DNA from: Oceanidesulfovibrio indonesiensis
GTDB taxonomy: Bacteria; Desulfobacterota; Desulfovibrionia; Desulfovibrionales; Desulfovibrionaceae
Direction: 5' to 3'
Assembly: GCF_007625075.1 (NCBI RefSeq)
Contig: NZ_QMIE01000003.1
Coordinates: 105,326-169,325 of the forward strand
Length of the DNA: 64,000 nucleotides
A model generated the notes under the pieces. It saw only the letters and a list, made by a program, of their open reading frames with translations, was not told the origin of the DNA and did no database searches. A program made the translations under genes and the position numbers. Within the stretch, counting starts at the first letter, position 1. Each line of letters begins with the position of its first letter. Positions 3,121 to 12,758 of this stretch are shown in pieces.

Positions 3121-5676
3121 ATGGTCTTCATTTCCGAGTTGAAGCTCGCCCTGCGGTTCGCCCGGCGGGAGCTGCGCGGCGGCGTGCGCGGTTTCGGCAT
3201 ATTCCTCGCCTGTCTGGCGCTGGGCGTGGCCGCCGTGGCGGCCGTGGGCACGGTGGCGTCCTCCGTGGATCATGCCCTGTCTCGCGACGCCAAGAAGCTC
3301 CTGGGCGGAGATATCCAGATTCGGCAGGTCCACATGCCAGCTTCGGACGATGCCCTCGGCGTGATGGAAGAGTTGGGCCAGGTGATGCGCGTGGTGGGCA
3401 TGCGCTCCATGGCCCGGCCGCCCGAAGGAATGGAAAACCGGACCGACGGCAGCCGGCGCTCATCCCTCGTGGAGCTCAAGGCCGTGGGACCGTACTATCC
3501 GCTGTTCGGCGAAGTGGAACTGGCTCCGGCCATGCCCCTGGCGGAAGCGCTGGCCCAACATAACGGCACGTTCGGCGCCGCCGTGGAGGAGAACCTGCTC
3601 ATTCGGCTGGGGCTCCAGGTAGGCGATACCATCCGCGTGGGTGAGACATCACTGGAGGTGCGCGCCAGACTTGAACGCGAACCGGACCGGCCGTCCAATT
3701 TCTTCGGTCTGGGACCACGCATCATCCTGTCGTTGCAGGCCCTGGAGTCCACCGGCCTGCTGCGGCCCGGCAGCGTGGTCACCTATGAGTACGCCATCGG
3801 GCTCGATGCCGGAATTACCGTAGAACAGGCCAAGAACCGGTTACAGCCGGTGCGGCAACCTGGCTGGCGCGTGCGCGATTACATGACCTCCAGCCCAGGA
3901 CTGTCCAGATTTTTCGACAACCTCGCCGTATACCTCACGCTGGTGGGCCTTGCAGCGCTTCTCGTAGGCGGCATCGGCGTGGCCAACGGTGTGCGCGCTT
4001 CCCTGGAAAAGAAATACGAAGCCATCGCCTCGCTCAAGTGCCTTGGCGCCACGCGGCGGCTCGTCATGTGGACGTACCTCGTGCAGACCATGGCCCTGGC
4101 TCTGCTGGGCAGCGCCATCGGCCTGGTGCTGGGCGTCGGCGCATCCTACATCGCCTCGCCGCTCATTGCCCAGCTGCTTACCGTGCCCGTCTCCATCCGC
4201 CCGTCTTTCGGGCCTATGGCCCTGGCGCTGGGATACGGCCTGCTCACAGCCGCGACGTTCGCCCTGTGGCCGCTCTCGGCAGCCGGCGCCGTCTCGCCGG
4301 CGCGGCTCTTCCGCGGGTATGGGGAAGCCGGTCCGCGCCGACCATCAATGCAGGCGGCGCTCGCCTCGATATGCTGCGGCGCCGGGCTCATCGGCCTCAC
4401 CCTGCTCTACGCGGACAACACCCGCCTCGCCCTGGGGTTCGCCGGCGGCGTCATCGCCGCCATGGCCTTCTTCCGCATAGCCGCCGTGGCAGTCATGCGC
4501 GTGGCGGCGCGATTGCCCCGGCCAAGAAAGCCGCGCCTGCGCCATGCCATAGCCAACCTGCACCGGCCCGGCGCGGCCACGCCGGCCGTGCTTTTCTCCC
4601 TGGGGCTCGGGCTCACCATCCTCGTGACAGTGAGCCAGGTGGACAGCACATTGCAGCGATCCATCAGCGAACAATTGCCGGAAGACGCGCCGTCGTACTT
4701 CTTCCTCGACATTCAGAACACTCAAATCGACGCGTTTCGCGAGATCGTGGCGGAGACGCCGGGCGTGGCAAGGATGGAGGCGCAGCCCTCCGTACGCGGA
4801 CGGATCACGGCCATCGACGGCGTGCCGGCCGAGGAAGCCGAAGTCGCAGAGGACGTCCAATGGGCGCTCCGCGGTGATCGCGGCATGACCTACGCGGCCA
4901 CGCCGCCCGAGAGCACGCAGATCGTTTCCGGAGAATGGTGGCCGGCGGATTACTCCGGGGAACCGCTCGTGTGCCTGGATTCAGACATCGCCGAGGGTTT
5001 CGGGGTGGGTCCCGGGGATACGATCACGGTGTCCATCCTGGGCCGAGAGTTCACGCCGACCATCGCCTGCACGCGGAACATCGAGTGGTCCACCCTCTCG
5101 CTCAACCATACAATCGTGTTCTCGCCCGGCGTGCTGGACAACGCGCCGCACAGCTGGATCGCCACCACATATGCGGACACGCGGGAGGCGGAAGACGCGC
5201 TGTTCGCCAAAGTGACTGCCGCCCTGCCCAGCGTGGCGGCTGTGTACGTGCGCGACGTGCTGGAGGACGTGGAGGCCATCGCCACGAACATCGGCATGGC
5301 CATCCGGCTCACGGCAGCGGTGACGCTGCTGGCCGGGCTGCTCGTGCTGGCGCAGACACTTGCCGCCAACCTGGAGCAACGGCATTACGATTCGGTCGTA
5401 TTCAAGGTGCTGGGCGCCACGCGACGGGATATCCTCGTCACCCTGGGGCTGGAGTTCCTGCTGCTGGGCGCGGTGACTGCGGCCGTGGCCGCGCTGGCCG
5501 GCTGCGTTCTGGCCTGGGCCTTCGTGAATACGTTCTTAATAACCAAGTACGTGCCGCTGTTGGGCCCGCTCGCGCTCATCCTGACCGGCGGGGTGCTGGC
5601 CACGCTGGCCTTGGGGCTGTTCGGAGTGAGGCATGCGCTTTCGAGACCGGCATGGCCTGTGCTGCGAAACGATTAA
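3121..5676 (+). CDS. ybbP: FtsX-fold ABC permease, YbbP type
   Basis: The 851-residue inner-membrane protein has an N-terminal helix (about residues 20-43), a periplasmic domain, an FtsX core of three helices (about 265-395), further central helices, a second periplasmic domain and a C-terminal FtsX core (about 720-845). KYEAIASLKCLGATRR and the related VVFKVLGATRRDI are the coupling segments that precede the helices in each half. This is the long, duplicated form seen in YbbP. Partnered with the upstream ATPase it should work on envelope lipid or lipoprotein substrates; the precise substrate of YbbAP is not established. Confidence 0.9.
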   Translation: MVFISELKLALRFARRELRGGVRGFGIFLACLALGVAAVAAVGTVASSVDHALSRDAKKLLGGDIQIRQVHMPASDDALGVMEELGQVMRVVGMRSMARPPEGMENRTDGSRRSSLVELKAVGPYYPLFGEVELAPAMPLAEALAQHNGTFGAAVEENLLIRLGLQVGDTIRVGETSLEVRARLEREPDRPSNFFGLGPRIILSLQALESTGLLRPGSVVTYEYAIGLDAGITVEQAKNRLQPVRQPGWRVRDYMTSSPGLSRFFDNLAVYLTLVGLAALLVGGIGVANGVRASLEKKYEAIASLKCLGATRRLVMWTYLVQTMALALLGSAIGLVLGVGASYIASPLIAQLLTVPVSIRPSFGPMALALGYGLLTAATFALWPLSAAGAVSPARLFRGYGEAGPRRPSMQAALASICCGAGLIGLTLLYADNTRLALGFAGGVIAAMAFFRIAAVAVMRVAARLPRPRKPRLRHAIANLHRPGAATPAVLFSLGLGLTILVTVSQVDSTLQRSISEQLPEDAPSYFFLDIQNTQIDAFREIVAETPGVARMEAQPSVRGRITAIDGVPAEEAEVAEDVQWALRGDRGMTYAATPPESTQIVSGEWWPADYSGEPLVCLDSDIAEGFGVGPGDTITVSILGREFTPTIACTRNIEWSTLSLNHTIVFSPGVLDNAPHSWIATTYADTREAEDALFAKVTAALPSVAAVYVRDVLEDVEAIATNIGMAIRLTAAVTLLAGLLVLAQTLAANLEQRHYDSVVFKVLGATRRDILVTLGLEFLLLGAVTAAVAALAGCVLAWAFVNTFLITKYVPLLGPLALILTGGVLATLALGLFGVRHALSRPAWPVLRND

Positions 5677-5721
5677 AAGGGGCACCTAGCATACAGGCAT
5701 ATCAGAATCTTAACAGAACGA

Positions 5722-6513
5722 TTAATCTGTATTATACTTTTCGAGCAATTGATTTAGAGTTTTTTTTACTCTGCGTTTTTCAATTTCAGGATCAATGGCT
5801 TGAAGATATTCACTCGCATTAAAACCGTCCCCTCTTTTCCTATTTTGTGGTGGCTCAAGCCCTTCAATCAACAAACTCTCCAGGGTGCTTACAATCATGT
5901 CTGCAGAGTTAGCTGAGGTATTCGCCACATCTTTTTCAAGTACACCGCCTCCTTCCTCCAACGCTCTAACTGAGTATAAGCCAAACCAGGAGAATCGATT
6001 CCAACGTCCATTTAGCCTGTCTTGAGTATGTTCATACAGTCTTTTCCCCAATGGACGGTCAATAGCTCTACCAACATAAACTGTCTCCTTACCATCATAC
6101 AAAATGTATACACCTATCTGTTCAGAAAAATCTACAGAATCTGCACCTAGCTGCTGCCTTCCTAACAACTTTGGAGTACCACACCAAAGTACAAAATCGC
6201 GTTGCCAAAACATACCAAATGCATTCACTATATTCTGGCCATTCTCACCTTGTTCTGCATTAACCTCTGCCAGCGATTCTTTCCCTTTCAGACTATATAC
6301 ACCTCTTGAGACTCTAATAAAAGGTGAACCCTCTTTTTCTTCATTGATTGACCCATTAATATAGACATTAACAGTATTGGCCGGAGTTGCTCCGATTTTA
6401 TTTTTTCGCAGTCCCAATTCAACAATTTTCTCGGCAATGTCAGCGTAATGCATTGCGTCCGAAGATTTTGAGAGGACCTCCAGGATTGCTTCTTTCCATG
6501 GCATATCATGCAT
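5722..6513 (-). CDS. HARE-HTH plus GIY-YIG nuclease-domain protein
   Basis: The 263-residue protein joins two domains. Residues 5-75 match the HARE-HTH (HB1/ASXL) winged helix, with WKEAILEVLSKS, MHYADIAEKIV and a SRGVYSLKG end. Residues 133-228 are a GIY-YIG nuclease fold: GVYIL, YVGRA at 146-150, R158 in KRLYEH, the E212/E217 region of TLESLLIEG and N224 in PPQNRKRG, so the catalytic Y, R, E and N are all present. ATG 6513 is preferred because GGAG lies six bases upstream; ATG 6525 has no such site. The gene is clearly more AT-rich than everything around it and stands alone between ybbP and the aldolase, which points to transfer. HARE domains are often found in restriction and other DNA-targeting proteins, so defence or selfish-element function is likely but unproven. 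Confidence 0.85.
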   Translation of the reverse strand: MHDMPWKEAILEVLSKSSDAMHYADIAEKIVELGLRKNKIGATPANTVNVYINGSINEEKEGSPFIRVSRGVYSLKGKESLAEVNAEQGENGQNIVNAFGMFWQRDFVLWCGTPKLLGRQQLGADSVDFSEQIGVYILYDGKETVYVGRAIDRPLGKRLYEHTQDRLNGRWNRFSWFGLYSVRALEEGGGVLEKDVANTSANSADMIVSTLESLLIEGLEPPQNRKRGDGFNASEYLQAIDPEIEKRRVKKTLNQLLEKYNTD

Positions 6514-6567
6514 AACCGTCTCCATTTTCTATTTGTTCTGCTAGCACCCAAAAAAACAATTTATTAA

Positions 6568-6596
6568 TTTATACAAACTTATTTATCTTATGTCAA
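6568..6596 (-). promoter_or_regulatory. Sigma-70 promoter of the HARE/GIY-YIG gene
   Basis: On the minus strand the sequence reads TTGACA, a 17-base spacer and TATAAA, about 50 bases upstream of the gene. This is the closest match to the vegetative consensus found in the window and lies in very AT-rich DNA. Confidence 0.75.
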
Positions 6597-6646
6597 CGAA
6601 TCAGTCTTCCAAATGCCTTTCTGAAGATGCCATATACGAAATGACA

Positions 6647-6683
6647 GCGCCCCGAGTCTCCCCGGGGCGCTTTCATTTTTATT
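6647..6683. terminator. Intrinsic terminator downstream of the aldolase gene
   Basis: A perfect 8-bp stem, GCGCCCCG with CGGGGCGC (6647-6654 and 6663-6670), has an 8-base loop and is flanked by a T-rich run on the plus strand (6671-6683). It sits just past the stop of the leftward aldolase gene. The A-rich DNA before the stem on the minus strand is typical of a two-way terminator. Confidence 0.6.
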
Positions 6684-6733
6684 GATGAGCACGTGTTCAT
6701 GCATCGATGAACAATGCTGCTCGGTTCATTTCG

Positions 6734-7786
<1,053 letters not shown>

Positions 7787-8527: not shown

Positions 8528-9883
8528 TTAGATCGCGTCCGGCTTTTCCATGTGCTCGTAGATGATGTCGCCCAGGAACTTGAGCTCCATCCCGAGATGG
8601 TTCGCATGGATGATGTCCTCGATGCCGCCGTGGCAGTTGTGGCACGGCGCCACGACGATGGAGGCCCCGGTTTCCCTGAGCTGGTCGGCCTTCACCGAGT
8701 TGCCGACGATGCGGGTGTTCTTGTGCGGCGGACCGCAGTTGATCACACCGCCGCCGGCCGAGCAGCAGTAGTTGTGCTCCTTGTTGGGATACATCTCCAC
8801 CACATTGTCGCAGAAGGCGTGCACCACGGTGCGCAGTTTCTCCTGCAGGCCGCGGCCGCGTATGATGTTGCAGGGATCGTGGATGGTGACTTTTTCCTGG
8901 ATCTTGGTCTTCACCTTGATTTTGCCCAGACGCAGGAGCTCCTCGAAGAAATCAACGGAGTGCTGGATTGTGACTGGCATCGATTCCCAAGCATCCCATC
9001 GGTTTCCGGTGTCGTAGATGGAACGGAAGGCGTGGCCGCATTCGCCCATCACGATGCGTTTGACCTTGAGACGCATGGCGTCTTCGAAGTGGCGGCGCTT
9101 AAGCCGGCCCATCATCTCCAGATCGCCTGTGAACATACACATGTCCGAATTGTCCCAGCCAGGCAGCGAGGACATGGTCCAGTCCGCGCCGGCCTCGTGC
9201 ATGATGACCGCGGCCTGGTAGATGAGCTGCGTGCGGAATTTGGGCTCCGGCGCGATGACAGAGTAGTAGATGTCCGCGCCCTCTTTTTCCAGTGGAATGC
9301 GCATGTTCGGAATCTCGTCGCGCGATTCGTCCTCCTGCCAGAACAGACTGTCCGTCCATTCGTCCTCCTTGACCCACATCTGATTGTAGGTGGCGGAGTG
9401 GCTGTGCGCCGTATCCTGAATATACTGCGGAGTGATGCCCAGCTTGTGACAGATGCGCCTGGTCAGGCTGATAAGGTGCGCGGTATCGATGCCGAAGGGG
9501 CAGTACTGCACGCAGCGGCGGCAGAGATTGCATTCCGTGTGCGCCACCTGCACGGCGCGCATGAGGAATTCCTTGGACACCTTGCCCTTCTTACGCAGCA
9601 TTTCCCAGATAGTCTGCTTGACCTTGCCTACGGGCGCATACTTGGGGTCGCGATCGTGAGACATGAAGAAATGGCACGCATCGGAACACAGCCCACAATG
9701 CACGCAGGTTTCCACGAGGATCTTGAGCCGGGCGCCGCCCTCTGCCTCGAGCGTCTGGTTGATGACCCGTTCGATGGTGGCCTCGTCCAGCTTTTCGAGC
9801 CCTTTCATGACGCCCGGATCATCATAGATCGGCTGGAGGAGATCCTTTTCCTTTTCTTTGGTTGCTGTCGCTGTCTCTGACAT
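8528..9883 (-). CDS. tmcB: CCG-domain iron-sulfur protein (TmcB, HdrD-like)
   Basis: The 451-residue cytoplasmic-side subunit resembles HdrD/DsrK. Two [4Fe-4S] cluster motifs lie in the N-terminal third, C60-C63-C66-C70 and C118-C121-C124-C128. The C-terminal CCG-type segments include C338 in IHDPCN, C373-C374 in NYCCSAGGG, C383 and C414/C417 in APCHNCHGG; in heterodisulfide-reductase relatives these bind a special cluster that acts on disulfides. The protein probably receives electrons from TmcC and delivers them to a cytoplasmic acceptor. The start at ATG 9883 has AGGAG eight bases upstream. It lies 19 bases after tmcC. Confidence 0.92.
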   Translation of the reverse strand: MSETATATKEKEKDLLQPIYDDPGVMKGLEKLDEATIERVINQTLEAEGGARLKILVETCVHCGLCSDACHFFMSHDRDPKYAPVGKVKQTIWEMLRKKGKVSKEFLMRAVQVAHTECNLCRRCVQYCPFGIDTAHLISLTRRICHKLGITPQYIQDTAHSHSATYNQMWVKEDEWTDSLFWQEDESRDEIPNMRIPLEKEGADIYYSVIAPEPKFRTQLIYQAAVIMHEAGADWTMSSLPGWDNSDMCMFTGDLEMMGRLKRRHFEDAMRLKVKRIVMGECGHAFRSIYDTGNRWDAWESMPVTIQHSVDFFEELLRLGKIKVKTKIQEKVTIHDPCNIIRGRGLQEKLRTVVHAFCDNVVEMYPNKEHNYCCSAGGGVINCGPPHKNTRIVGNSVKADQLRETGASIVVAPCHNCHGGIEDIIHANHLGMELKFLGDIIYEHMEKPDAI

Positions 9884-9902: not shown

Positions 9903-10565
9903 TTACCAGTCTTTGGTGTGGCGCACGCCGCCGAACTCGGAGCCCAGGTAAGCGCGTACCATAGGGCCATAGATCATATGCCCGATCCTGCTGAAAGGCA
10001 CTATGACCAGGGCGGCCTGACCGGCAAGAATGTGGAATATAATCATGAACTTGTAGTTGAAGATCTGATAGTGCGCGAGAATCCCTGTAAGGAACGGCAG
10101 CGCGATGACTACGAGCAGTGCGAAGTCCGTCCAGTCGGTTACGTACTTCACCTCGTTCACGGTCATGCGGCGTGCGGCGAAGAAAACGCAGCCAGCGAGC
10201 ACGCACACGGTGAGCACGTCGGCCAGCCATTCCGGCATGGTCCACAGGGAGATGCCGAGAGCCCCTTCCTCCCACATCAGTATGTGGGCCAGCAGGAATA
10301 TGGGGACGAGAATGACGCCGATATGGAAGAGGAAACCGAAAAACGTGACCCAGGGATGCATGCGCATGCTGCGCGGGTAGTACGGAATGAGCCAGGCGCC
10401 CCAGGAACGCAGGGTCCACTTGGCTTTCAGATAGTGCATTACATACGGATCTTTTTTGCGCGCCAGTCGCGTGATTGCGACGAACCGCCACACGAGGCCG
10501 CCGATGAAGACTATGGCCACGGCCCACATGAGGGGGCCCACCAGGAATGCATAGAGATCGTGCAT
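9903..10565 (-). CDS. tmcC: Cytochrome-b-like membrane subunit (TmcC)
   Basis: The 220-residue integral membrane protein has about five hydrophobic helices (roughly 8-30, 72-95, 112-135, 145-165, 172-192) and histidines within or near them, as in NarI/DsrM-like quinone- or haem-b-binding subunits. In the Tmc complex it links the periplasmic tetrahaem cytochrome to the cytoplasmic CCG protein. GGAGGG lies directly before ATG 10565. It begins 14 bases after the tmcD stop, so the operon is tightly packed. Confidence 0.9.
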   Translation of the reverse strand: MHDLYAFLVGPLMWAVAIVFIGGLVWRFVAITRLARKKDPYVMHYLKAKWTLRSWGAWLIPYYPRSMRMHPWVTFFGFLFHIGVILVPIFLLAHILMWEEGALGISLWTMPEWLADVLTVCVLAGCVFFAARRMTVNEVKYVTDWTDFALLVVIALPFLTGILAHYQIFNYKFMIIFHILAGQAALVIVPFSRIGHMIYGPMVRAYLGSEFGGVRHTKDW

Positions 10566-10579
10566 GGCTCCCTCCAGTG

Positions 10580-11851
10580 CTAGAATTCAGAGATCGGGAC
10601 CACGATCCGCTTGTACACGCCGCCGTCCAGACAACGGATCATGACGTGCTGGGAATCGGGGCTGAAGACAGGGCTCCACGCCTTGTCGAAATCCTTGTGA
10701 TAGGCGTGGCCGTCCAGGATGATGGTCATCTGGCCGTCCTTGCGCTCCACGGCGTAGCCTACGTGCCTGGAGTCAGGACTGAACACAGGGGGATAGGCCA
10801 TGGCGAACCAGCCGACCCAGCGTGTGTCATCCACGATGATGCCCCACTGCTCGTCGGTCTTGCCGATGATGGCGGCGCGTTTGCCGTCCGGGCTGATCAC
10901 CAGGTCGCTGACGGCCTGCTTGAACTTCTCGCCCCAGGCCTTGCCATTCACGGCTACGGTCCACCTGCCGAAGGATGGCGCGACCACGGCGTAGAGGTTG
11001 GCGCCGTCATCCGAGAACGCCGGCTTCCAGCACTGGAAGAATCTGGGCTCCCATATCCATTCGTCGTCCTTGAGCATGCCCCACTTGCCACCCTGACGAC
11101 CCGCGGCGACCACAGAGCCGTTGCCTGGGTTGAAACGGGGCTCCCACATGCACTGGTAACGTGAGTTCCAGGCCCGGCCGTCCACGGCGATGGTGTAATC
11201 ATAGAGCGATGTACGCACCGTTGTCGCAACGCTCTCGCCCTTGGCGTCGAATACCGGGTCCCAGCAGTTCACGAAGTTCCGGTCCCATGGCTCACCGTTC
11301 ACGGCCACGCTGAAACAGCCTTCCTTGAAAGTGAATATGTCGGCCTGCGGAATGTTGCGCGTCTGCACCACGGAGGCGATCTTCGAGCCGTCCGGGGACA
11401 TGACGGGATGGTTCGTATTCTCGAAGAACTCACCCCAGGGTTCGCCGTCTTTTACGTACCCGTACTGCATGTCCTGCTGCACCGCGGCGGCGATTGCGCC
11501 GCTGTCTTTGGCGAAGCGGGTATCCCAGATGAAGCCGTAGCGTTCCTCCCAGGGTTCACCGTCCACCACGAGAGTCCATTCCGCCATTTCCGAACACAAC
11601 GCAGTGAGTCTGCTGTCCGGTGAGAAGCGGGGATACCAGCACCGTTCGAATGTGGATTCCCAGAGTTCCCCGTTGACCGCGAGGGTGAATACAGCTTCTT
11701 CCTCATCGCGAATCTTGGCGACCCGGGCGATTTTCTCGCCGTCGGGACTGACGACCGGTTCTTCGAGCCACTCACAATCGCCTGAGCAGGCGTCGTAGGC
11801 GACGATTTCCTTCTCTCCGGGGTTCCAGTCCCAGAGGGATGCGTCCTTCAT
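10580..11851 (-). CDS. tmcD: Tryptophan-rich propeller protein (TmcD)
   Basis: The 423-residue protein is built of about ten degenerate repeats of 35-45 residues with the theme VxVNGExW...CWxPxFSPDxxxxA, which resembles WD40/PD40 beta-propeller blades. Tryptophan is unusually frequent. There is no signal peptide or membrane segment, so it should be on the cytoplasmic side. Its position as first gene of the tmcDCBA transcript identifies it as TmcD, the accessory subunit of the complex; its function is not known. The ATG has GGAGG five to nine bases upstream. Confidence 0.9.
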   Translation of the reverse strand: MKDASLWDWNPGEKEIVAYDACSGDCEWLEEPVVSPDGEKIARVAKIRDEEEAVFTLAVNGELWESTFERCWYPRFSPDSRLTALCSEMAEWTLVVDGEPWEERYGFIWDTRFAKDSGAIAAAVQQDMQYGYVKDGEPWGEFFENTNHPVMSPDGSKIASVVQTRNIPQADIFTFKEGCFSVAVNGEPWDRNFVNCWDPVFDAKGESVATTVRTSLYDYTIAVDGRAWNSRYQCMWEPRFNPGNGSVVAAGRQGGKWGMLKDDEWIWEPRFFQCWKPAFSDDGANLYAVVAPSFGRWTVAVNGKAWGEKFKQAVSDLVISPDGKRAAIIGKTDEQWGIIVDDTRWVGWFAMAYPPVFSPDSRHVGYAVERKDGQMTIILDGHAYHKDFDKAWSPVFSPDSQHVMIRCLDGGVYKRIVVPISEF

Positions 11852-12758
11852 GGGTTCCTCCTTGTCGAGGAGATCATTGATTAGACGTAATACAGCCCCT
11901 TGCCCACAGGACCAAGCAACGAAAGCTTTTCATACAAACTACCCAATACGTAAGGCGAAGTCATGAATCAAGCCAATTTTAATCCTACCCTACTTATAGG
12001 AATTAATTACTACTACAACAGGAGGTTTCTGCGTTCTCAGGATGTATACCAGACAGCGCCTCGATACCTTTCACATCAATTCTCAACCCATTTCGTGGGA
12101 ATTAACCCTTTTTGATCCTGGTTTTCTTTCCCTCTCACAATGATTACAACATTTCAACACAGAAAATCTTCGCGGTTCATTTTGAATTACTTTTTGAAAC
12201 CACATCGACTTTGCATACAGATTACTTACTCAACAACTCACAGGCGAATTACACTGTCGGCTACGAATCCATTCTGTTTATGTTTGTTTTGAAACAACGC
12301 TGCACATTGCACAATCATACTTACACCACCCATGCATCGCCTGATTTTTTCTGGAACGTGCACTTTGACATATTCTGCAACTCATACTACTGTACAGGCT
12401 ATGCGGTGGAGAACCCTGGAACGCTCCTCGATTCGCAACGTTCCGTTCGCTTTTGGACGGAGGTTTGGGGCCACACGCAGCTTTTTTTCCATGGCAGCAA
12501 TCCACCATGCATCGGACACAGTTGCCGCATCGATGCGCATGGTGCTTGCAGGGGCATATGTGCGGAGCAAGACAGCCCCGCGTCCGGCACAACATTCCCC
12601 TCCTTTAAATTAGGTGTTATGGAAAGAAAGAGTATTCCCCACAAAAAACTTCGATGATCGCTTTGAGGAAATACACGCGTGTTACGCACCGCAAGCCACA
12701 GCGCCTGCGAAAAGCCATGCACCCTGCAAACACTCGCCGATCCTGGATGGTGCACACA
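11852..12758. other. Long spacer upstream of tmcD and of the TPR gene
   Basis: These ~900 bases separate the leftward tmc operon from the rightward TPR gene. The part from 11870 to 12330 is AT-rich and must contain the tmc promoter, but I could not pick a convincing one. A TTG-initiated plus-strand frame (12112-12657) looks non-coding. The only gene candidate is the minus-strand cysteine-rich frame at 12278-12595. Confidence 0.6.
12278..12595 (-). CDS. Possible small cysteine-rich protein
   Basis: This 105-residue frame starts at ATG 12595 with AAAGGAGGGGA directly upstream, as good a ribosome site as any in the window. Cysteines are concentrated at the start (CPCK, CGNCVRC, DCC, AACG) and recur near the end (CRIC, CKYDCAMC), giving about 15 in all. 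The clusters suggest metal binding. Against it are uneven codon use, an AT-rich second half and no recognised family. It would be transcribed toward the tmc operon, but the tmcD start is ~430 bases away. I regard it as a coin-flip real gene. Confidence 0.42.
   Translation of the reverse strand: MLCRTRGCLAPHICPCKHHAHRCGNCVRCMVDCCHGKKAACGPKPPSKSERNVANRGAFQGSPPHSLYSSMSCRICQSARSRKNQAMHGWCKYDCAMCSVVSKQT

Follow-up and report, generated by a model that had tools for sequence, protein, structure and literature searches.

The HARE-HTH/GIY-YIG gene and its promoter

The window, a stretch of 64,000 nucleotides (G000:C3:105326-169325) from the 4.29-Mb genome of Oceanidesulfovibrio indonesiensis, carries a lone gene in which an N-terminal HARE-HTH winged helix is joined to a C-terminal part that is predicted to be a divergent GIY-YIG nuclease (Table 1). 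The flanking genes converge on the junction in which it lies, with a MacB/FtsX-type permease upstream and a DeoC/LacD-family aldolase downstream; a preliminary description of this DNA had named the site a "ybbP"-"fba" junction, correct as to position and incorrect as to both gene names. The gene has a GC content of 0.409 (window mean 0.616) and a GC3 of 0.336 (window mean 0.752), and its GC is the lowest among the 44 open reading frames (ORFs) of at least 150 amino acids in the window, in agreement with its earlier characterization as a lone AT-rich gene. A second AT-rich patch, at positions 11750-12500 (GC 0.43-0.44), contains short ORFs only, and no Rfam family or tRNA was found in it.

Table 1. 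Features of the permease-aldolase junction and of the gene within it (window positions).
Feature	Position	Strand	Basis or remark
Variable junction, permease 3' end/aldolase 3' end	5677..6733	.	YcaO gene there in same-genus genome
HARE-HTH/GIY-YIG fusion gene	5722..6525	-	267 aa; ORF free of internal stops
Probable start M5	6513	-	Gives 263 aa; GGAG 6 nt ahead of second ATG
Promoter-like TTGACA-17-TATAAA	6568..6596	-	11/12 matches; -35 TTGACA at 6596-6591, 17-nt spacer, -10 TATAAA at 6573-6568
HARE-HTH winged helix, residues 9-80	6286..6501	-	Pfam PF05066 and model matches
Linker, flexible and poorly conserved, residues 81-100	6226..6285	-	Mean pLDDT 60 and 58 (two blocks)
Divergent GIY-YIG nuclease domain (predicted), residues 101-245	5791..6225	-	Active-site set, model, weak fold matches
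Tyr140 (GIY)	6106..6108	-	Invariant; matched to Eco29kI Y49
Tyr150 (YIG)	6076..6078	-	Invariant; matched to Eco29kI Y76
Arg162	6040..6042	-	Invariant; matched to Eco29kI R104
His166	6028..6030	-	Invariant; matched to Eco29kI H108
Glu216, presumed metal ligand	5878..5880	-	Invariant; matched to Eco29kI E142
Asn228	5842..5844	-	Invariant; matched to Eco29kI N154

Translation is likelier to begin at M5 than at the first ATG, because of the GGAG motif that precedes it and because the relatives L036 and L037 are read from the equivalent residue, under a rule that took the nearest ATG. The consensus-like promoter reported earlier is present; when the 208 bp upstream were simulated 3000 times with a first-order Markov model, 10 of the simulated sequences matched as well. 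A looser scan of positions 5600-6760 returned 3 promoter-like sites, compared with 2.3 expected from shuffling; TTGACA-17-TATAAA is missing from its list because that scan requires a T at the last -10 position.

Protein domains and active site

The Pfam HARE-HTH model matches the window protein with an E value of 5.1e-14 and 52.9 bits (curated cut-off 25.9), and the domain was found in all 82 aligned members of the family (Pfam, E up to 0.001); the window gene is the sole HARE-HTH found in its genome. The full-length structure model (pLDDT 88.1) has helices at residues 10-20, 27-36 and 48-66 and strands at 69-73 and 76-79, and its HARE part matches the winged helices of linker histone H1 (the top match, Z 9.1), FOX, Fur and RNA polymerase delta. 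The linker that follows varies in length among members.

The C-terminal part is assigned to the GIY-YIG superfamily on an invariant active-site set, which is the stronger argument, and on a confident model with weak GIY-YIG structural matches. Y140, Y150, R162, H166, E216 and N228 are constant in 85 of 85 aligned rows (82 full-length and 3 nuclease-only), an invariance that is not a product of how the sequences were selected, since the pattern used to find relatives fixes residues 175-182 only. Their correspondence to Eco29kI was drawn by motif order, not by direct alignment; in that enzyme, mutation showed that all of the active-site residues but Y76 matter, Y76 mutants not having been obtained (PMC1952068).

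Modelled alone (pLDDT 89.9), the nuclease part gave weak matches to the GIY-YIG structures of UvrC (Z 3.2-3.6), T4 endonuclease II (3.3), Hpy188I (2.4) and Eco29kI (2.0), in a ranking headed by an unrelated chain at Z 4.4 and with nothing at Z 5 or above. Even at an E value limit of 1, Pfam reports no GIY-YIG model for the window protein (two such models each match one of the 82 members), and a PDB sequence search for GIY-YIG gave it no significant match; the best PHROGs hit had an E value of 0.37, NCBIfam returned a weak UvrC match (E 0.14), and Foldseek gave no match at E ≤0.001 for the whole model against PDB and viral structures or for the nuclease model against the PDB. Across the 82 members, Pfam at E up to 0.001 detected only winged-helix and GIY-YIG models and no NUMOD-type module. 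The pairing of a HARE domain with a full set of GIY-YIG catalytic residues, as first described, is thus upheld, and such an architecture would suit the DNA-targeting role proposed for it.

Insertion site and distribution among relatives of the host

The same-genus genome G001 lacks the window gene, and its junction is occupied by a 640-aa YcaO gene (PF02624, E 4e-47; GC 0.42; L035:3660-5582). Because the window gene stands there in one genome and the YcaO gene in the other, the permease-aldolase junction has received different inserts in two genomes; similarity between them stops in the last permease codons and resumes inside the aldolase gene. At 13 of 13 other permease loci outside the genus, no aldolase was found within the flank of ~1.5 kb on each side (shorter at contig ends).

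Of 348 genomes of the class, 13 contain matches at E up to 0.001 and only three have full-length copies, the host's own genome included: the window gene itself, L008 (on an 8.6-kb contig, 49% identity) and the gene of plasmid pDMC2 of Solidesulfovibrio magneticus RS-1 (41%). In a sample of the phylum, 12 of 395 genomes match at 1e-10 and five have full-length copies, again with the host's own counted. Absence from G001, sporadic occurrence among relatives and close copies in unrelated hosts support the proposal of the preliminary description that this is a single, recently gained gene; genus-wide presence with a vertical phylogeny, the pattern that would speak against it, was not observed, G001 being the sole other genome of the genus compared.

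Elsewhere in the Desulfovibrionaceae, the frame at L003:1459-2553 contains two HARE-HTH stretches and Mrr_cat, and a frame at L011:1426-2550 resembles it by eye.

Size, breadth and selection of the family

A profile scan of a genome collection covering 84,980 species yielded 360 candidate stretches, 321 of which encode relatives; the alignment-based scan found them, whereas searching genome and viral contigs with a single protein had confirmed none. The family set consists of the best 80 of the 321 relatives, each covering HARE and nuclease, and the alignments contain 79 of these loci, L044 being omitted as a near copy of L043. Record titles of the 80 best loci give 18 named phyla, with six loci lacking a phylum label, and 68 of the 80 are metagenome bins ("MAG" in the record title); the 12 non-bin loci belong to Pseudomonadota except for one from Planctomycetota, so that, with S. 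magneticus added, named isolates or strains represent three phyla.

On the tree, phylum labels change 31 times, compared with a minimum of 17 and with 35.1 after shuffling (as low in 1 of 200 shuffles). Pseudomonadota account for 16 changes (24.9 shuffled) and Verrucomicrobiota for 4 (7.7 shuffled), values reached in 0 of 500 shuffles, and Planctomycetota labels are scarcely clustered (7 changes, 7.7 shuffled), so that lineage structure and scatter are both present. How widely the gene has been transferred is less certain than the labels imply, because labels cluster, three neighbourhood-sharing pairs are same-family and bin labels may be wrong; the odds on function are independent of the phylum count and are therefore unchanged by bins and clustered labels. 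The window gene is nearest to L036 and L037 (57-58% identity), in a grouping that carries no starred set on the tree.

Among the 77 relatives' loci with enough flank, the GC content of the gene lies below that of the flank in 72 (mean difference -7.8 points), against an average of +0.6 points for 578 control ORFs of the same loci. Low GC is thus common to the family and fits a mobile pool, and since relatives share it, low GC alone is a weak argument for dating the gain of the window gene. The dN/dS ratio is 0.02-0.13 (dN 0.013-0.069, dS 0.15-1.38) across 11 close pairs, of which six span differently named phyla; the protein is thus kept under purifying selection in the relatives.

Queried with the window protein and with one or two further family members, 72,556 plasmids gave 2 matching records and 50,697 phage records likewise gave 2; both phage records, one plasmid record and 7 viral contigs contain only the nuclease part. 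The nuclease-only phage genes (L006:4013-4507 and L007:4013-4507) come from two Synechococcus phages, where they adjoin the portal and terminase genes and are encoded on the opposite strand, the L007 relative being annotated as endonuclease II and that of L006 noted as "integron gene cassette protein". A blastn search of one cassette-type gene against 5,426 E. coli genomes gave no match.

Integron cassettes, plasmids and arrays

Homology stops near the gene ends in 42 of the 45 closest pairs listed (<930 bp common to both), and the other three pairs, all same-family, have several kb of common neighbourhood. Across phylum labels, identity reaches 90% over 898 bp between L076 (Acidithiobacillus, an isolate contig) and L080 (a 4.2-kb contig of a Lentisphaeria bin), a homology that begins 22 bp ahead of the start and ends 63 bp beyond the stop; its limits are marked by GTTAGAT before the gene and ATCTAAC after it, followed by an attC-like palindrome. 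A safer pair is L076 with L059 (a 308-kb Bacteroidota bin contig), 80% identical over 826 bp.

A cassette border pair, defined as GTTRRRY and the complementary RYYYAAC at the gene borders, is present in a minority of copies, namely 10 of the 77 loci considered (three of the 80 were left out for short flanks), compared with 1 of 1105 control ORFs (Fisher p 8e-12); the p value is optimistic because the test was framed after the alignments had been seen, several of the hits are related (L076/L080 and L070/L082 among them) and overlapping control frames were kept. The single control ORF with such a pair (L099) may itself be a cassette, and 7 of the 10 hits also fit when the border is narrowed, post hoc, to 35 nt upstream and 10 nt downstream. 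In L045, an integron integrase (TIGR02249, 8e-114) is encoded ~1.2 kb from the gene, which is followed by a 117-nt hairpin of 37 symmetric pairs; a quick integrase motif screen near the other cassette-like copies added only L114, which is a XerC.

The two boxes of an inserted attC site derive from different cassettes. A first attC scan, which combined strict complementarity with a fold-energy filter and found sites on both sides of only 1 of 83 genes, was for this reason too strict. An attC array scan of the 80 loci detected gene-adjacent sites in L070, L076 and L099 only, with 19 same-strand against 21 opposite-strand sites over all loci, and testing for hairpins alone gave a noisy result (24 of 78 against 95 of 682). 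The window copy itself was rejected as an integron cassette, there being no border boxes within 70 nt of the gene; the two plasmid-type copies likewise have none within that distance. Integrons have been reported to carry anti-phage genes (PMC12444791, citing Darracq, Getz and Kieffer 2025), and an Aeromonas integron cassette encoding a GIY-YIG protein is in print (PMC10609294).

The gene is also carried by two small Solidesulfovibrio-type replicons, L004 (an 8.9-kb plasmid, GC 0.37) and L033 (an 8.6-kb contig whose first 2.7 kb have a GC of 0.34 and which has no terminal overlap to prove circularity). They have six proteins in common, including a DnaB_C protein, a recombinase, RelE and CopG, and in both a convergent DnaB_C-type gene adjoins the HARE-GIY-YIG gene. 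To derive the window copy from a plasmid would be too strong, since the Solidesulfovibrio copies (39-49% identical) form their own starred branch and the window gene is nearest to L036 and L037.

Direct repeats lie beside single genes, the HARE-GIY-YIG gene included, in two genomes of one genus (L141:7627-7736 and 8553-8662; L142:12040-12091, 10146-10197 and 9264-9315). They copy the 3' end of an adjacent gene that is oxidoreductase-like by eye, one L142 copy being only 65% alike, and gene order differs between L141 and L142, giving a cassette-like array without attC. The candidate array of G561/G492 was rejected as attC, as its flanking repeats copy the 3' end of the adjacent gene.

Genomic neighbours and defence context

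Neighbour clusters within 6 kb recur in at most 6 of the 80 loci, and Pfam families in at most 2 of the 140 nearest neighbours; hence there is no recurrent linked methyltransferase. In this respect the gene stands alone as type IV enzymes do, with no cognate methyltransferase recurring among its neighbours, and the adjacent methyltransferase of an Eco29kI-type restriction-modification system is missing at the window, where the flanks are the permease and the aldolase. Nor do the 80 loci have a common insertion neighbourhood of the kind that marks homing endonucleases.

The comparison with defence databases that had been suggested earlier gave little: PADLOC returned only a weak PDC-S14 match in the GIY-YIG region (residues 136-177 to profile positions 48-91 of 280, E 1e-3), and 4 of the 82 members have a match at E up to 0.01. 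In a crude, family-wise comparison of 140 near genes with 140 length-matched genes out of 264 distant ones (4 of 144 near neighbours, above 900 aa, having been left out), 81 PADLOC families were matched near the gene and 78 among the distant genes, scarcely different. Matches near the gene include PDC-S41, type I and II restriction enzymes, AbiU and reverse transcriptases; among the first 25 families of each listing, type II methyltransferases had 2 distant-gene members and none near.

Proposed function and rival explanations

We consider it reasonably probable that the window gene encodes a stand-alone, single-protein, type IV-like restriction nuclease in which the HARE domain would read and the GIY-YIG domain would cut, and the family probably serves as a single-gene defence, directed at DNA that is foreign or chemically modified. 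The winged helix would dock on a feature that marks DNA as foreign, for which a modified base of a phage or mobile element is the likeliest candidate, and the flexible linker would let the C-terminal domain cut near the mark; as the host's own DNA would lack the mark, no partner methyltransferase would be needed. The gene moves as a single unit, in integron cassettes in several lineages and on small cryptic plasmids in Solidesulfovibrio, and the window copy is a chromosomal insert with its own promoter at a variable junction. Support comes from the constant HARE domain and active-site set, purifying selection, the lack of recurrent neighbours, gene-sized homology between hosts and the cassette borders of some copies, and from two tested single-protein precedents that combine a modification reader with GIY-YIG, namely Ahi29725I/Apa233I (PMC11037411) and CMoRE (PMC12923530). 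Against this reading count the marginal PADLOC match, neighbours without clear defence enrichment, the weak GIY-YIG fold match, the lack of a cassette border at the window copy, and nearest relatives that are not the Desulfovibrio plasmid genes.

As to what would be read, cytosine modification is regarded as the likelier target of HARE, which has an extra helix in its HTH (PMC11037411), and modification discrimination has been proposed for HARE-REase fusions (PMC10853773); in the literature searched, the ligand of bacterial HARE is given as a prediction only. We inspected 32 hosts, all of them gene carriers (7 genomes and 25 of the 80 loci, chosen by hand and mostly longer contigs or named strains). 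Dam-family genes over the cut-off are present in 7 of the 32, including the window's genome, and C5-methyltransferase matches, a few of them only fragments, in 16, not including it. The Dam-family methyltransferase of the window's genome lies at G000:C19:74318-75052, and there are two weaker matches elsewhere in that genome. If host methyltransferases of both kinds are active, plain GATC-6mA or generic 5mC is unlikely to be the trigger; the coexistence of both kinds with the gene family argues against the HARE domain as a Dam reader or a 5mC reader, and leaves a phage-type modification or a narrower context as its possible trigger. The fuller proposal, that HARE-GIY-YIG modification-dependent nucleases form a cross-phylum, partly integron-borne one-gene defence whose HARE domain reads a phage-type mark that the usual host methyltransferases do not make, is put forward tentatively, as less likely than not.

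Four rival explanations were weighed against the restriction nuclease. A selfish nuclease, directed by one element against another, would read sequence and either exclude competing plasmids, phages or integrons or insert itself like a free-standing homing endonuclease; the carriage by two related small replicons and by integron cassettes would suit it, as would the nuclease-only relatives in two Synechococcus phages and 7 viral contigs. We regard it as unlikely, because there is no conserved insertion site or neighbour, unlike for homing genes, purifying selection acts between hosts and none of the 82 members has a NUMOD-type module. More doubtful still is a UvrC- or ANKLE1-like nuclease of repair or recombination, structure-specific and spread horizontally, in which HARE would act as a general DNA clamp; in its favour one may cite UvrC as the top-ranked GIY-YIG structure and linker histone, a general DNA binder, at the head of the HARE matches. 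Against it, the family is sporadic (full-length in 5 of 395 phylum genomes), cassette- and plasmid-borne and AT-rich, a distribution that is rare for housekeeping repair genes.

The resemblance of the HARE part to RNA polymerase delta, and the annotation of the plasmid copy merely as an HTH-domain protein, could point to a regulator whose nuclease domain is degenerate or RNA-directed; this is very improbable, as all six presumed catalytic residues are constant in every aligned row. The poorest candidate is an orphan type II restriction enzyme that recognizes a specific sequence, with protection coming from unlinked host methyltransferases or from absent sites; it has in its favour the Eco29kI active-site set and the C5-methyltransferase matches in half of the hosts, and against it the lack of a recurrent linked methyltransferase in 80 loci and the likelihood that so portable a cassette would be lethal on reaching an unmodified host.

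If the restriction nuclease is modification-dependent, the family would be a compact set of enzymes with a HARE-HTH sensor, a class whose ligand is so far predicted in the literature searched, and a cutting assay would make the target of HARE directly testable. It would then add another single-gene defence to those in integron cassettes and provide a tractable enzymatic read-out of HARE recognition, that of human ASXL1 included.

Comparison with known systems

Our literature search for HARE-HTH with GIY-YIG returned no description of a HARE-GIY-YIG fusion in the sources covered, the founding HARE paper (Aravind and Iyer 2012) lying outside its scope, and the DefensePredictor paper (PMC13092281) makes no mention of HARE or GIY-YIG. 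T4 endonuclease II (2wsh), whose role, together with the protection of T4 DNA, is treated in PMC1564403, resembles the nuclease part through a weak fold match (Z 3.3) and through the name "endonuclease II" on a Synechococcus phage relative; it differs in having 129 residues in the solved chain and no HARE, and it is not among the 9 PDB sequences matched by the family profile (E up to 10). Eco29kI (PMC1952068) has the six active-site residues in the same order, but belongs to type II, is accompanied by the methylase gene eco29kIM and has the fixed site CCGCGG, whereas the window family is without a recurrent linked methyltransferase.

HARE is joined to a DNase also in the HARE-HTH-PD-(D/E)XK/Mrr fusions (PMC10853773, PMC12839542; L003 above), in which, however, the nuclease belongs to another superfamily, those of Dnd and BREX being parts of multi-gene systems. 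The wH-GIY-YIG enzymes Ahi29725I and Apa233I cut near Gm6ATC (PMC11037411); like the window gene, each is one gene that combines a winged helix with GIY-YIG, and linked methyltransferases are rare. Their reader is a DpnI-type winged helix sensing Gm6ATC, which that paper sets apart from HARE-HTH, the reader found here. An enzyme of their kind would be expected in hosts without the Gm6ATC mark, and a Dam-family gene, which may supply that mark, is present in 7 of the 32 hosts of our family.

CMoRE/PD-T4-3 (PMC12923530), which cuts 5hmC/ghmC DNA, is likewise a single-component GIY-YIG defence enzyme with a separate modification-sensing domain, as is predicted for the window protein. CMoRE has an N-terminal nuclease with a GIYxY motif and a sensor fold without known homologues, whereas in the window protein the nuclease is C-terminal, the motif reads GVYILYD with the next Tyr three residues on, not two, and the putative sensor is HARE.
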